Source of the DNA: Flavobacterium tyrosinilyticum
GTDB taxonomy: Bacteria; Bacteroidota; Bacteroidia; Flavobacteriales; Flavobacteriaceae
Assembly (NCBI RefSeq): GCF_023656565.1
Contig: NZ_JAMOKG010000002.1
Coordinates: 1,432,030-1,496,029, forward strand
DNA length: 64,000 bases
Direction: 5' to 3'
Shown here: piece by piece, positions 2,916 through 22,787 of the stretch
Layout of the letters: each line of letters starts with the position of its first letter
Numbering within the stretch: position 1 is the first letter of the stretch
Notes under the pieces: model-generated
The model's input: only the letters and a program-made list of their open reading frames with translations
Told to the model about the DNA's origin: nothing
The model's database searches: none
Made by a program: the position numbers and the translations under genes

Positions 2916-3323
2916 ATGGAAGATAGAGACACTTTTTTAAAAGAATTCAGAGGCGAAACTTTAGGAACCGTTAGTGCTCAATCTTCACCAGATGAGTTAT
3001 TTCAAAACCAAACAATCAGGCCGATTTTAAAACTCCAAAACGATTTGTTTATCGCAGTTTTTATTAATTATATAAATAAGAACAAGCGTGATTTTTATTC
3101 TTATTCGGTTGAGAAGAAACTACAAACTATTGAAAATTCAATTCAGAAAGATATTAAGTTCCGAAATTCTCTAAAAGGAATTGTAATGGGACTTTTTACG
3201 CTTGACGAATATGATACTTATATTCAAAATTCATCTAATTTAAATAAACGAATGATGAATTTATTGATTGAAAGATTGAAAAGTCAAGTGCAACTTTTTG
3301 AAGTGGAATCTGATTTGAAGTAA
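2916..3323 (+). CDS. conserved hypothetical protein
   Basis: A 135-residue soluble protein, largely helical, starting MEDRDTFLKEFRGETLGTVS and carrying LQNDLFIAVFINYINKNKRD and IQKDIKFRNSLKGIVMGLFT. There is no signal peptide or membrane helix, and I cannot assign a family. It is followed after 7 nt by another unknown gene, with which it probably forms an operon, and then by the Crp/Fnr gene at 3828. Confidence 0.65.
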   Translation: MEDRDTFLKEFRGETLGTVSAQSSPDELFQNQTIRPILKLQNDLFIAVFINYINKNKRDFYSYSVEKKLQTIENSIQKDIKFRNSLKGIVMGLFTLDEYDTYIQNSSNLNKRMMNLLIERLKSQVQLFEVESDLK

Positions 3324-3330
3324 TTTTTAG

Positions 3331-3798
3331 ATGGAAATAGAAATTATTGAAAAGCAGAATCAAAGCCTATTTGTTTATAAAGAAGGTGGATTATTGTTTT
3401 ATTCCACAGTAAAATTTAATTGGATTAGTAGAATTATAAAAATATACAATCCTTATGATGTATTAGCTTTAGAGTTAAAATATGGTTCTTTTTTTCAGAA
3501 ATCAACTTATTTAATTCTTCATCAGAATAAGTTCATGACAAAGTTAATATCAGATATAGATAGCAAAATTTTGATTTTTGATAACAATAAACGCTTACTT
3601 ACTAAATCAGCACATTTTTTCTCTCTAAGTCATAATTTTAATTACTTTTTTGAAGGAAAAATAATTGCTCAGGTAAAGCAAAATATATTCAGTATTCAAA
3701 CCAAATATTTATTAAATGTAAATGATGAAAATTTAGAGCTTTTGGATCAAATAATTTTTCATCTTTTATCAATTAAGACTGGGTATTCGGTTGATTAA
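3331..3798 (+). CDS. hypothetical protein
   Basis: 155 residues, AT-rich codons, no signal peptide. The pattern is mostly alternating hydrophobic strands (QSLFVYKEGGLLFYSTVKF, IIKIYNPYDVLALELKYGSF, HFFSLSHNFNYFFEGKIIA), which suggests an antiparallel beta fold, possibly LURP-one/Tubby-like, but no diagnostic motif is visible. It lies 7 nt after the previous gene and 29 nt before the Crp/Fnr gene, so all three may share a transcript. Confidence 0.55.
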   Translation: MEIEIIEKQNQSLFVYKEGGLLFYSTVKFNWISRIIKIYNPYDVLALELKYGSFFQKSTYLILHQNKFMTKLISDIDSKILIFDNNKRLLTKSAHFFSLSHNFNYFFEGKIIAQVKQNIFSIQTKYLLNVNDENLELLDQIIFHLLSIKTGYSVD

Positions 3799-3827: not shown

Positions 3828-4403
3828 ATGTTCAACCAATTCCGAAACAAGTTCCCTTTAACAGAAGAAAAATGGAACGAATACGTCGGTTATTTTAATC
3901 GAATTGAAGTTTCTGCTAAAACAACGCTTTTAGAAGAAGGTGAAATCTCAAAAAAGCTTTTTATAATTGAGAAAGGCTGTATAAGAGTTTGGTTTAATAA
4001 TAACGGAAAAGATCTGACTTCACAGTTCTTTTTTGAAAATCAAAGCGTGGCTTCGATCGAAAGTTTTATGAAGAAGTTTCCAAGTCCAGTTGTAGTTGAA
4101 ACAATTGAACCTTCTGTTTTATGGTGGATTCACAAAGAAAATCTTGATATTATAATTGAAGAAATCAAAGAAAATCCAGAGTTGAGAGATCGTTTGATTG
4201 ATATGCTTTTTCAAAGAACTTTCGACTATATGAAACACTTTTTTTCTTTCATAAAAGATTCTCCTGCTCAGCGTTATCTTAGTTTAATTCAAGAAAAACC
4301 TCAAATTGTTCAAAGAGTTCCGCAACATTATATTGCATCTTATTTAGGTATTAGTACGGTTCATTTAAGTAGAATTAAAAGTAAATTGCTTCAAAATAAA
4401 TAG
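3828..4403 (+). CDS. Crp/Fnr family transcriptional regulator
   Basis: 191 residues. An N-terminal cyclic-nucleotide-binding-type beta barrel (about 20-120, EEGEISKKLFIIEKGCIRVWF) and long dimerisation helix precede a C-terminal helix-turn-helix (about 155-190, VPQHYIASYLGISTVHLSRI). There is no four-cysteine Fnr cluster motif, and residues for cAMP binding are not clearly conserved, so the effector is unknown. It sits 77 nt upstream of an MDR oxidoreductase whose promoter carries a 16-bp palindrome, the likely target. This pairing mirrors the regulator at 22169-22738. Confidence 0.9.
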   Translation: MFNQFRNKFPLTEEKWNEYVGYFNRIEVSAKTTLLEEGEISKKLFIIEKGCIRVWFNNNGKDLTSQFFFENQSVASIESFMKKFPSPVVVETIEPSVLWWIHKENLDIIIEEIKENPELRDRLIDMLFQRTFDYMKHFFSFIKDSPAQRYLSLIQEKPQIVQRVPQHYIASYLGISTVHLSRIKSKLLQNK

Positions 4404-4415
4404 CCTTTTTCATTT

Positions 4416-4431
4416 GATAACAAATGTTATC
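4416..4431 (+). promoter_or_regulatory. candidate Crp/Fnr operator upstream of MDR gene
   Basis: GATAACAAATGTTATC: perfect 7-bp arms with a 2-nt centre. It ends exactly 21 nt before a consensus -7 box at 4453. That is the same spacing as for the TTTGCC..GGCAAA palindromes at 22145 and 22772. Its centre is about 42 bp upstream of the predicted transcription start, a class II activator position. Confidence 0.6.
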
Positions 4432-4452
4432 GTCTACCCATAAACGGCTTTC

Positions 4453-4460
4453 TAATTTTG
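4453..4460 (+). promoter_or_regulatory. -7 promoter box of the MDR gene
   Basis: TAATTTTG matches the Bacteroidota TAnnTTTG -7 consensus. Transcription would start near 4466, giving a leader of about 15 nt before the ATG at 4481. No clear -33 TTTG is visible, in keeping with dependence on an activator bound at 4416-4431. Confidence 0.65.
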
Positions 4461-4480
4461 CTTCATAAAATTTAATAATT

Positions 4481-5452
4481 ATGAAAGCAGCAGTAGTTTA
4501 TACAAAAGGCGAATTGCCAAAATGTGCAGAGTTTCTGGAGCCAATTGCATCAAATGAAAATGAAACTTTGGTTTCGATAAAAGCCGTAGCCATTACAAAT
4601 CTGGATAAAGGCATTGCAAGCGGAGATCATTATTCTTCGGAAAAAGAAAATCAAAACGGATTTATAGTCGGAAGTGACGGAATTGGAGTTCTAGAAAACG
4701 GAACAAGAGTTTATGCCCGCGGAATCTCAGGAACAATCGCCGAAAAAGCTTTAGTAGAGAAAAACCGAATGGTGGTTTTACCAGACGGAATTAATGATGC
4801 CACGGCCGCAGCGATGCCAAATGCAGTTGCAGGTTCGGCAATGGCACTTCGTTTTAGAGCAGCAATAAAACCTGGAGAAACTGTTTTGATAAATGGAGCG
4901 ACTGGTTTTACAGGACAAATGGCAGTTCAAATTGCAAAACATTATGGAGCCAAAAGGATAATCGTTACAGGAAGAAATGAAAAAACGCTTGAAAGCCTTT
5001 TAGAATTAGGTGCCGATGAAATTGTTTCCCTAAAACAAGAGGACGAATCTTTTGTTTCTCAGTTAAAAGAAATCCATAAAAATACTCCAATTGATATTGT
5101 AATTGACTATTTATGGGGACATTCGGCAGAACTTATTCTTTCCGTTTTAAAAGGAAATGGAAACTTTACACATAAAACGAGATATGTTTCTGTAGGCTCA
5201 ATGTCTGGAGATACTATTCAATTATCTGCACAGATTTTACGCAGCGTTGATCTTCAGTTATCCGGTTCCGGATTAGGAAGCTGGACAAAAGAAGAAGTCA
5301 AATTGCTGTTTTCTGAAATACTTCCCGAAATGTTTCTTTTGGCTTCAAAAAATATACTAAAAGTAAATATTGAAACCGTTCATTTATCGGATATTGAAAA
5401 AATGTGGAATGCAGAAGTTAGTGATGGAAAACGCTTGGTTGTGGTAATTTAA
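4481..5452 (+). CDS. zinc-less MDR family NAD(P)-dependent oxidoreductase
   Basis: A 323-residue medium-chain dehydrogenase/reductase. The N-terminal GroES-like domain covers about 1-125. The nucleotide-binding Rossmann domain has VLINGATGFTGQMAVQIAKHYGAK at about 134-158 and a TGRN end to the second strand, which suggests NADPH. Catalytic-zinc ligands are absent, placing it with quinone oxidoreductase-like members. The substrate is unknown. It probably answers to the adjacent Crp/Fnr regulator through the palindrome at 4416-4431, which would fit a reactive-electrophile or redox response. Confidence 0.85.
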   Translation: MKAAVVYTKGELPKCAEFLEPIASNENETLVSIKAVAITNLDKGIASGDHYSSEKENQNGFIVGSDGIGVLENGTRVYARGISGTIAEKALVEKNRMVVLPDGINDATAAAMPNAVAGSAMALRFRAAIKPGETVLINGATGFTGQMAVQIAKHYGAKRIIVTGRNEKTLESLLELGADEIVSLKQEDESFVSQLKEIHKNTPIDIVIDYLWGHSAELILSVLKGNGNFTHKTRYVSVGSMSGDTIQLSAQILRSVDLQLSGSGLGSWTKEEVKLLFSEILPEMFLLASKNILKVNIETVHLSDIEKMWNAEVSDGKRLVVVI

Positions 5453-21351: not shown

Positions 21352-22089
21352 TTACCAAGGACTTTCTTCGCTTTCGTCTTCAATATCATTACTGAAGAAT
21401 TTTCCTGTTGGTCCATTTTCATCTAGTAAAGTGTGTTTTATTATAAAACTTGCAGCGCTTTCTACGCTTCCTGGTCCGCTATGATGGTTAAAATCGGTTG
21501 CGGTGTAGCCTGGATCAATTGAGTTTACTTTGAATGGCAGTTCTTTTAATTCATGAGCCAAAGTAACGGTAAAGGCATTTAAAGCAGTTTTGGAAGAAAC
21601 GTACGAAATGGCTTTTATTGCATAATATTTCCAAGTTGGATCGCTATGCAAAGTAAGAGAACCAAGTCCGGAGGTTATGTTACTGATTCTCGGACTGTCT
21701 GATTTTTTCAATAATTCAAGAAAAGCCTGTGTAACGGTTATTACTCCGAAGAAATTCGTATCAAAAACCTTCTGAATACTTTCGATAGAAGTCGTAGAAG
21801 GATCTTGCGGAATATCGCCTAGAATTCCAGCATTATTTATCAGAATGTCCAATTTGCCTTTTTCTTTTTCAATGCCGTTTTTTGCTGCTAAAACACTTGC
21901 TGCATTTGTAACATCAATTTGAATCGCTTTAATGTTTTGAAATCCATTTTCATTCAGTTCTTTTACTACTTCTTCTCCTTTTGCGAGATCACGCGTTCCT
22001 AAATAAACAAATAATCCTTTCTTGGAGAGCTGTTTAGCAGTTTCTAAACCAATGCTTCTATTTGCGCCTGTAATTAATACTATTTTCAT
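21352..22089 (-). CDS. short-chain dehydrogenase/reductase (SDR)
   Basis: A 245-residue classical SDR. The cofactor motif is TGANRSIGLETAKQL (residues 7-21, with Ser in place of the common second Gly), then NNAG (DILINNAGILG), the catalytic Ser in ITSGLGSL, and YVSSK with the Tyr/Lys pair. The LGTRDLAKGEE segment after strand 2 suggests NADPH. It ends in a DEESEESPW tail. It lies downstream of a Crp/Fnr gene, and both have the same TTTGCCATATGGCAAA operator, so the SDR is very likely part of that regulator's regulon. Confidence 0.9.
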   Translation of the reverse strand: MKIVLITGANRSIGLETAKQLSKKGLFVYLGTRDLAKGEEVVKELNENGFQNIKAIQIDVTNAASVLAAKNGIEKEKGKLDILINNAGILGDIPQDPSTTSIESIQKVFDTNFFGVITVTQAFLELLKKSDSPRISNITSGLGSLTLHSDPTWKYYAIKAISYVSSKTALNAFTVTLAHELKELPFKVNSIDPGYTATDFNHHSGPGSVESAASFIIKHTLLDENGPTGKFFSNDIEDESEESPW

Positions 22090-22115: not shown

Positions 22116-22123
22116 CAAAGTTG
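22116..22123 (-). promoter_or_regulatory. candidate -7 box of the SDR gene
   Basis: On the minus strand CAACTTTG resembles TAnnTTTG with one mismatch. It begins 21 nt after the palindrome at 22145-22160, the same distance as for the Crp/Fnr gene's own promoter and for the MDR gene at 4453. Confidence 0.5.
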
Positions 22124-22144: not shown

Positions 22145-22160
22145 TTTGCCATATGGCAAA
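22145..22160 (-). promoter_or_regulatory. Crp/Fnr operator upstream of the SDR gene
   Basis: TTTGCCATATGGCAAA, a perfect 16-bp palindrome, identical to the one at 22772-22787. It sits 55 nt upstream of the SDR start codon. Confidence 0.75.
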
Positions 22161-22168
22161 AAACGATT

Positions 22169-22738
22169 TTAAGGGATATTTTTTCTAATCCTGCTCAAGG
22201 AAGATTGTGTTATTCCGAGATAAGAAGCGAGATACGAAAGCGGAACTCTATTAATTACTTTTGGAAACATTTCCATAAATGACAAATAACGAGTTGTAGC
22301 ATCTTCTGAAACCAGCGGACTTCTTCGAGCCACTTTTTGAATTAATGCCTTCGAAATGATTTTATGCACAATCGTGTCCCAGCCTACTATTGTATCAAGC
22401 AATTCCTGCCAATCGGCTTTAGAAAATACAATAACTTTACAGTCTGTAACCGCTTGGACATAAGCAGACGAGCAAATATTATTGTCAAAACTTTCTAAGT
22501 CTACAACCAGATTATTCTCATCGATGAAATATTTAGTAATCTCCTCACCTTTGTTGTTGTAGTAACAAACACGCATTATTCCGTCTATGATAAAACCAAC
22601 TTCTGCGGCTATTTTTCCAGCTTCAGAAAAATATTCCTCTTTTTTGATTTCTTTTTCTTTGGCTTTCGTTAAAATCAGATCCATCTGCTGCTGATTCAAA
22701 TTGCCAAACTGCAATATATAATTAACTAATTCTTTCAT
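22169..22738 (-). CDS. Crp/Fnr family transcriptional regulator
   Basis: 189 residues. The cNMP-type barrel covers about 25-115 (EAGKIAAEVGFIIDGIMRVCYYNNKGEEITKYF) and the C-terminal helix-turn-helix about 150-188 (VPLSYLASYLGITQSSLSRIRK). It is a paralogue of the regulator at 3828 with a different recognition helix, matching the different palindrome. An identical palindrome lies upstream of both this gene and the downstream SDR, pointing to autoregulation plus control of the SDR. The effector is unknown. The start codon lies very near the predicted transcription start, so the mRNA may have almost no leader. Confidence 0.9.
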   Translation of the reverse strand: MKELVNYILQFGNLNQQQMDLILTKAKEKEIKKEEYFSEAGKIAAEVGFIIDGIMRVCYYNNKGEEITKYFIDENNLVVDLESFDNNICSSAYVQAVTDCKVIVFSKADWQELLDTIVGWDTIVHKIISKALIQKVARRSPLVSEDATTRYLSFMEMFPKVINRVPLSYLASYLGITQSSLSRIRKNIP

Positions 22739-22742
22739 GCAC

Positions 22743-22750
22743 GAAAGTTA
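22743..22750 (-). promoter_or_regulatory. candidate -7 box of the Crp/Fnr gene
   Basis: On the minus strand TAACTTTC is one base from TAnnTTTG. It begins 21 nt after the palindrome at 22772-22787. The predicted start falls about at the ATG (22738). Confidence 0.45.
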
Positions 22751-22771
22751 AGTATAAGTTTTTATTGAGAA

Positions 22772-22787
22772 TTTGCCATATGGCAAA
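22772..22787 (-). promoter_or_regulatory. Crp/Fnr operator upstream of its own gene
   Basis: A second exact copy of TTTGCCATATGGCAAA, 33 nt upstream of the regulator's start codon and immediately after the 3' end of the GNAT pseudogene. Confidence 0.75.

Follow-up and report, generated by a model that had tools for sequence, protein, structure and literature searches.

A palindrome placed 21 nt before the -7 element of the gene that follows many Crp/Fnr regulator genes in flavobacteria

The window, a 64-kb stretch of the Flavobacterium tyrosinilyticum genome, contains a gene for a Crp/Fnr-family regulator (ending at 4403) and, on the same strand, a gene for a medium-chain dehydrogenase/reductase (MDR) superfamily oxidoreductase with its start codon at 4481. 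Between the two genes lies the palindrome GATAACAAATGTTATC, whose arms GATAACA and TGTTATC flank a 2-nt centre, followed after 21 nt by the promoter element TAATTTTG. This arrangement had been proposed by a sequence-only reading of the window, and its coordinates were confirmed in the sequence (Table 1). We use N21 for a gap of 21 nt between the end of the palindrome and the first base of the -7 element, and N22 for one of 22 nt; at the MDR locus, the -7 element begins 29 bp after the dyad centre. Among the 24 even dyads of the window in which pairs 2-8 are complementary (each counted on both strands), only two had NAnnTTTG at N21, those of the MDR promoter and of a short-chain dehydrogenase/reductase (SDR) promoter. 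The MDR protein scored below the cut-off for PIG3-type quinone oxidoreductases (TIGR02824, 98.7 bits vs. 296.8). Two ORFs upstream of the Crp/Fnr gene (135 and 155 aa, window 2916-3798) had no Pfam or NCBIfam match.

Table 1. Features of the MDR and SDR loci in the window.
Feature	Position	Strand	Basis
Crp/Fnr-family regulator, 191 aa, recognition helix STVHLSRIK	3828..4403	+	ORF; PF00027; predicted CRP/FNR fold
Putative operator GATAACAAATGTTATC; its dyad is centred between 4423 and 4424	4416..4431	+	Sequence; conserved; single exact copy in the genome
Spacer, 21 nt, constant in length and diverged in sequence	4432..4452	+	60-locus comparison
-7 promoter element TAATTTTG, fits TAnnTTTG	4453..4460	+	Consensus and numbering from PMC6847099 (available text)
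MDR-superfamily oxidoreductase, presumed target	4481..5452	+	ORF; PF00107, 61.1 bits (cut-off 31.8)
SDR-family oxidoreductase, presumed target of the second regulator	21352..22089	-	ORF; PF00106, 149.2 bits
-7-like element CAACTTTG of the SDR gene	22116..22123	-	Sequence
Putative operator TTTGCCATATGGCAAA before the SDR gene	22145..22160	-	Sequence; N21 in 30/30 orthologous loci
Second regulator of the Crp/Fnr family (189 aa; recognition helix TQSSLSRIR)	22169..22738	-	ORF; PF00027, 41.5 bits
-7-like element TAACTTTC, own promoter of the second regulator	22743..22750	-	Sequence
Further copy of TTTGCCATATGGCAAA, upstream of the gene for the second regulator	22772..22787	-	Sequence

The regulator of the MDR locus carries a cNMP-binding domain (PF00027, 36.4 bits vs. 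a cut-off of 27.5). It is not CRP proper, since it scored 21.3 bits against a cut-off of 266 in the cAMP-activated equivalog NF008732, and the Pfam sequence scan reported no HTH family. The predicted structure (pLDDT 86.1) has C-terminal helices at residues 166-172 and 177-189, and a Foldseek search with this model matched CRP, GlxR, and FNR structures over about 190-200 columns with TMq up to 0.80. The domain and the predicted model place the protein in the Crp/Fnr superfamily, with the overall CRP fold and C-terminal DNA-binding helices. It is one of many such proteins: the genome has 24 PF00027 matches, and 22 lie in frames of 183-250 aa. A cysteine sensor was also considered and set aside. 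Of 68 aligned relatives, 63 share Cys51, but this residue offers no specific evidence, as the KGC stretch also occurs in 3dn7, a cyclic nucleotide-binding regulatory protein of Cytophaga hutchinsonii.

We searched 398 genomes of the same genus and found a homologue of the regulator (E <= 1e-20) in 190 of them. The loci examined numbered 90, the window's own and 89 others (L055-L143). The MDR gene followed the regulator on the same strand in 60 loci, with a regulator identity of 63-100% and gaps of 59 to 357 nt. When these 60 loci were aligned on the dyad, the mean column identity was 99% in the palindrome and 93% in the -7 element, compared with 73% in the spacer and 66% in the left flank. The spacing was N21 in 58 and N22 in one; the remaining locus carried TAATTTCG at N21. 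A further 13 loci with an MDR gene came from deeper relatives (43-54% identity), and all 13 kept the core TAACA-N2-TGTTA. Read by eye, a -7-like element stood at N21 in five of them and at N22 in eight, and several had a less regular element in which a final A replaced G. The other 17 of the 90 loci had no MDR gene in the stretch covered and were excluded from the conservation counts. In a set of 80 named loci, from genera including Flavobacterium, Pedobacter, Chryseobacterium, Niabella, Taibaiella, Parachryseolinea, and Zunongwangia, the spacing was N21 in 70 and N22 in six, and four had no site, two of these having no MDR gene within the stretch covered. Many of the named loci apparently come from the same genomes as the 90-locus set, so the two sets are not independent. 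The closest named relative was Flavobacterium ginsenosidimutans, with 97% regulator identity.

The operator was nearly private to the Crp-MDR locus. The exact 16-mer GATAACAAATGTTATC has one copy in the 5.29-Mb genome. Across 199 genomes, the pattern GATAACANNTGTTATC occurred 39 times in 32 genomes (2 for the backward control), 30 times at the Crp-MDR locus. In this fetched set, 34 genomes carry the locus; 30 had the exact pattern there and four had one- or two-base variants, and a match was found in only two of the 165 genomes outside those 34. As for the nine exact sites off the locus, four lay within one conserved coding sequence, two were terminator-like by eye, two stood before a small gene in deep relatives, and one followed another Crp/Fnr gene. 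The last three of these show that the privacy is incomplete. In two genomes of deep Crp-MDR relatives (L498, ~1071; L503, ~1054), an exact GATAACA-N2-TGTTATC also precedes a gene for a protein of 126-129 aa, which may be a second target; one of these proteins had a sub-threshold SnoaL_2 match. In another genome (L499, ~1112), the exact operator recurs behind an additional Crp/Fnr gene, again with an element (TTTCTTTG) at N21, and that genome has its copy at the Crp-MDR locus as well. A large GATAAC regulon in the window's genome was considered and rejected: GATAACNNNNGTTATC with at most one mismatch gave 14 sites vs. 20 for the backward control, and the sole other exact GATAACNNNNGTTATC site, GATAACGGACGTTATC, is without the A/T core.

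The second Crp/Fnr regulator of the window lies next to the SDR gene and has a different palindrome, TTTGCCATATGGCAAA, of which the genome holds just two exact copies, both at this locus. A genome-wide search with TTTGCCANNTGGCAAA returned the window's two exact sites plus four sites with one mismatch, compared with 0 for the control. Both copies of TTTGCCATATGGCAAA, taken on the minus strand, are followed after 21 nt by a -7-like element, CAACTTTG or TAACTTTC, which bears out the earlier statement that the gap at 22145 and 22772 is identical to that of the MDR locus. The same reading gave TAnnTTTG as the motif to scan for. TAATTTTG at the MDR gene fits it, but CAACTTTG and TAACTTTC each differ from it by one base. 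The operator stands exactly 41 nt before the second regulator's own ATG in 28 of 30 orthologous loci (window 22739-22787; L158-L187) and 40 nt before it in one, and one locus is without the box; these own promoters have TAACTT-type elements at N21. If the class II geometry applied there, transcription would begin with the first base of the start codon, and the gene would be leaderless and self-regulated.

We also examined groups of orthologous loci around other paralogues. The palindrome was at N21 in all 30 loci of the SDR group (c22) and in all 29 loci with a palindrome, among 30 in total, of a group (c44) with a target of the carboxymuconolactone decarboxylase (CMD) family and the palindrome CTTGAAGTAGTTCAAG. 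A group with a DinB_2-family target (c54, TTGATTnnAATCAA) had a strict palindrome in nine of 23 loci, with NAnnTTTG at N21 in seven and NAnnTTTA in two. A fourth group (c41; L041, L218-L247), with the FNR-type palindrome TTGATnnnnATCAA, had a palindrome in 25 of 30 loci and NAnnTTTG at N21 in none; 22 of these 25 were without NAnnTTTG anywhere within N12-N36, and the other three had it at N23, N25, and N26. The Crp/Fnr helix of this group reads PETLSR, and shortly beyond the palindrome comes a conserved stretch with GGTTTTGC at its end. All four groups were picked after their palindromes had been seen, so they are no test of the spacing rule. The groups also differed in the first base of the -7 element, T-12. 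It was absent from all sites of the SDR (0/30), CMD (0/29), and DinB (0/9) groups and present in 49 of 58 MDR promoters and in 10 of 20 clusters from the 118-cluster sample described below. In the TAnnTTTG motif of the earlier reading, the first T is often G or C.

For a family-wide count, we searched the ORFs of 417 loci with a profile of this genome's paralogues, and among the matches listed there were 390 distinct Crp/Fnr genes, which formed 131 clusters at 60% identity. Within a 250-nt stretch beginning 20 nt upstream of each stop codon, we recorded the distance from every even dyad (pairs 3-7 complementary) to NAnnTTTG. All tested loci were reached through homology to the window regulator or to its paralogues, and the clusters are phylogenetically non-independent. 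In all 131 clusters, N21 occurred in 25 and N22 in eight, against a background mean of 1.01 and a maximum of 3. Once clusters with members in the named groups were removed, 191 genes in 118 clusters were left, and the counts were 20 and 5 (background 0.57, maximum 3); a search for TAnnTTTG only gave 10 at N21 vs. 0.22, and a relaxed palindrome gave 32 at N21 and 10 at N22 vs. 2.08 (maximum 7). This sample still included loci inspected earlier, namely this genome's paralogues and four deep relatives. The strictest sample dropped every cluster touching any locus inspected before the first test (132 genes, 96 clusters). The sequence-only reading had named the lack of an excess of N21 over other spacings as what would refute it. 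The excess is there: in the 96 uninspected clusters, 17 were at N21 and three at N22, against a mean of 0.32 and a maximum of 3 at other distances, and the relaxed palindrome gave 28 and 7 vs. 1.38 (maximum 6). No N21 peak was seen in the 118-cluster controls with odd-centred dyads (0, background 0.39) or direct repeats (2, background 0.67). The peak also depended on orientation. In 94 clusters, the downstream same-strand side had 22 at N21 and seven at N22, and no peak appeared on the divergent side (2 at N21) or the convergent side (1). The regulators' own promoters departed from the rule, with NAnnTTTG at N21 in 0 of 94 clusters. A phylum-wide draw, mostly from other families or orders (L351-L417), gave N21 in three of 39 clusters and N22 in one (background 0.11). 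The rule thus reaches past the genus, where 39 clusters are a thin sample. About four in five of the uninspected clusters (79 of 96) had no strict N21 site, so the rule is common, not universal.

Next to these sites, we asked what the downstream genes encode. Sites at N20-N23 were present in 28 clusters, and 27 downstream proteins, one per cluster, were scanned with Pfam; the 28th ORF was of 35 aa. Oxidoreductase types made up seven of the 27 (MDR 2, SDR 3, NmrA 1, and flavodoxin/FMN reductase 1), which does not support the earlier view of NAD(P)-dependent enzymes as the targets throughout. The others included CMD (5), DinB (3), glyoxalase (2), and metallo-beta-lactamase fold (2) proteins, with pirin, MFS, Na/Ca exchanger, outer-membrane barrel, and chalcone synthase-like proteins once each, and three had no Pfam match. 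Going by these domain assignments, redox and detoxification functions are common among the downstream proteins.

The available text of PMC1274295 already links residues 180 and 181 of regulators in this family to operator bases, and we compared recognition helices with half-sites in 33 clusters, assigning the residue numbers by eye after that paper. Agreement was partial. ETLSR went with TTGA[TC], VHLSR with GATAAC, and VSLSR with TTAAC or TTATC; E[FYH][LF]S[KEM] went with TTAA[AT], except for AEFMSK with TTGAA, and S, H, or T before SLSR went with TTGCC, the exceptions being QSLSR with TTAAC and ASLSR with ATAAA. Across 23 clusters formed at 50% identity, the residue at CRP position 181 was compared with half-site position 4: Glu was paired with A in 11 of 11 cases, Ser, His, Thr, or Asn with C in four of four, and Val with A in four of six. 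Over the same 23 clusters, overall helix similarity and operator similarity correlated at r = 0.21, a value reached in 117 of 5000 permutations. The claim that operators are paralogue-specific is supported, with operator type going with helix type, and the suggested comparison of palindromes with recognition helices gave a qualitative agreement but a modest statistical link.

We next placed the palindrome relative to the predicted transcription start site. The -7 element of F. johnsoniae, in the available text of PMC6847099, comprises T-12, A-11, T-8, T-7, T-6, and G-5, with 4-5 nt from the element to the start site in probable promoters; the -33 motif is much less evident, and T-12 is nearly invariant in the set of that study. 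With N21 after a 16-bp palindrome, the dyad lies 29 bp before the -7 element and hence at -41.5 from the predicted start. Class II Crp sites of E. coli are centred at -41.5 (PMC5957442, available text). The value of -41.5 for a flavobacterial dyad is our own derivation from these two papers and is stated in the available text of neither. By the F. johnsoniae numbering, the class II-like layout that had been proposed therefore holds for the predicted start.

We consider it likely that the palindrome serves as operator for the Crp/Fnr protein whose gene lies just upstream, and that the layout is that of a class II activator promoter. A Crp/Fnr dimer would sit on the 16-bp dyad centred at -41.5, covering the position of the weak -33 element. 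It would contact RNA polymerase there and start transcription of the next gene downstream, here the MDR gene. The core promoter would be the Bacteroidota -7 element, and the recognition helix of each paralogue would set the sequence of its operator. The sequences themselves show the conservation, the constant spacing, the near-privacy of the site and the N21 excess across the family; we infer both the binding of the palindrome by this protein and the activation, rather than repression, of the gene. A palindrome at one fixed distance from the next promoter suggests that the regulator switches its neighbour on, and the absence of T-12 in the SDR, CMD, and DinB groups fits promoters that need an activator. 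Since other paralogues have other operators, the regulator, operator, and target may act as a small, nearly private switch. Several findings speak against this explanation: the FNR-type group is without N21, eight of the 13 deep relatives have N22 with less regular -7 elements, 79 of the 96 uninspected clusters have no strict N21 site, the helix correlation is modest, and the exact site also occurs before a small gene in two deep relatives.

The adjacent protein could bind the palindrome and still repress the MDR gene, blocking the -33 region for as long as no signal removes it. The palindrome overlaps the place of the -33 element, and the MDR promoters mostly keep T-12 and here the full TAATTTTG, as if working unaided. 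However, a repressor would not have to be phased to the exact base with the -7 element, whereas unrelated operators share N21, and the lack of T-12 from every SDR, CMD, and DinB site would suit an activator. We therefore regard repression as unlikely.

It is highly improbable that the palindrome belongs to another regulator and that its position after a Crp/Fnr gene reflects gene order only. Across genomes, the presence of the site goes with that of the Crp-MDR locus (30 of 34 genomes with the locus, two of the 165 others), many other Crp/Fnr genes are followed at this position by a palindrome of another sequence that goes with their own helix, and the second exact site in L499 directly follows another Crp/Fnr gene. 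On the other side, position and co-occurrence are what link the palindrome to the Crp/Fnr protein, and in L498 and L503 the exact site precedes a SnoaL-like or unassigned gene with no adjacent Crp/Fnr gene in the stretch covered. That the palindrome is a terminator or an RNA hairpin ending the Crp/Fnr transcript seems to us extremely improbable. It does lie 3' of the stop codon, its RNA can fold a 6-bp hairpin (-5.3 kcal/mol, z -2.76), and the CMD-group palindrome is followed by a run of five T. A scan of 4300-4600, however, found no terminator-like site, the MDR-locus palindrome has no T run behind it, the CMD-group stretch folds no better than shuffles (z -0.52), and a terminator would leave the N21 distance to the next promoter unexplained.

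Beyond the operator and activator reading of the MDR locus, we put forward a wider proposal tentatively and hold it at a little under even confidence. The orphan Crp/Fnr sets of Bacteroidota may be largely self-contained cassettes of a regulator, an operator at -41.5, and a downstream target, in which operator and helix co-evolve and the activator offsets the loss of T-12. If this is true, N21 and the helix type would predict the targets of many uncharacterised regulators in the phylum. The targets of some 20 Crp/Fnr paralogues per large Flavobacterium genome are mostly uncharacterised, and a base-exact rule, with the dyad 29 bp upstream of the next gene's -7 element, offers testable predictions of targets and operators. 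The rule also suggests that class II geometry transfers to the unusual primary sigma factor of Bacteroidota, and the natural pairs of regulator and operator could serve as a basis for building a recognition code. On its own, the MDR cassette looks like an ordinary local switch. As far as our literature searches tell, the new part is the base-exact, family-wide rule on Bacteroidota promoters; no paper on the arrangement of regulator, palindrome, and N21 was found in the open-licence PMC literature, and it may be published elsewhere.

Several known systems resemble parts of this arrangement. The PrfA box of Listeria, TTAACANNTGTTAA, has the core TAACANNTGTTA in common with the MDR-locus operator, and PrfA is a Crp-type regulator. 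The phylum and promoter type are different, and no PrfA structure was among the eight PDB sequences matching the window regulator. The best of these matches was 3dn7 (E 2e-18), which is also a close fold match but has the recognition helix TPEYLSEI in place of STVHLSRIK. HcpR2 and NssR, as described in the available text of PMC1274295, are CRP/FNR-family proteins with the operator core TAACnnnnGTTA (GTAACnnnnGTTAC; TTAACnnnnGTTAA), they are often encoded beside the regulated gene, and residues 180/181 are linked to operator bases. In contrast, their targets in that text are hcp and a globin gene, position 181 is Pro or Gln there and Val here, and the available text mentions no constant distance to a -7 element. 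The gene downstream of the window regulator encodes the MDR oxidoreductase, so the regulated hcp neighbour of HcpR2 regulators was not found. The ETLSR paralogues are like FNR in their TTGATnnnnATCAA operators (FNR box from PMC1274295, available text). The class II CRP/FNR promoters of E. coli are built on a -35/-10 core, unlike the Bacteroidota -7 element, and the regulators here are local, lie beside their presumed targets, and have varied operators, with activation being our reading of the layout. In both systems, the site for a Crp/Fnr dimer lies over the upstream promoter element, and the dyad centre is 29 bp before the -12 base (PMC5957442, available text).
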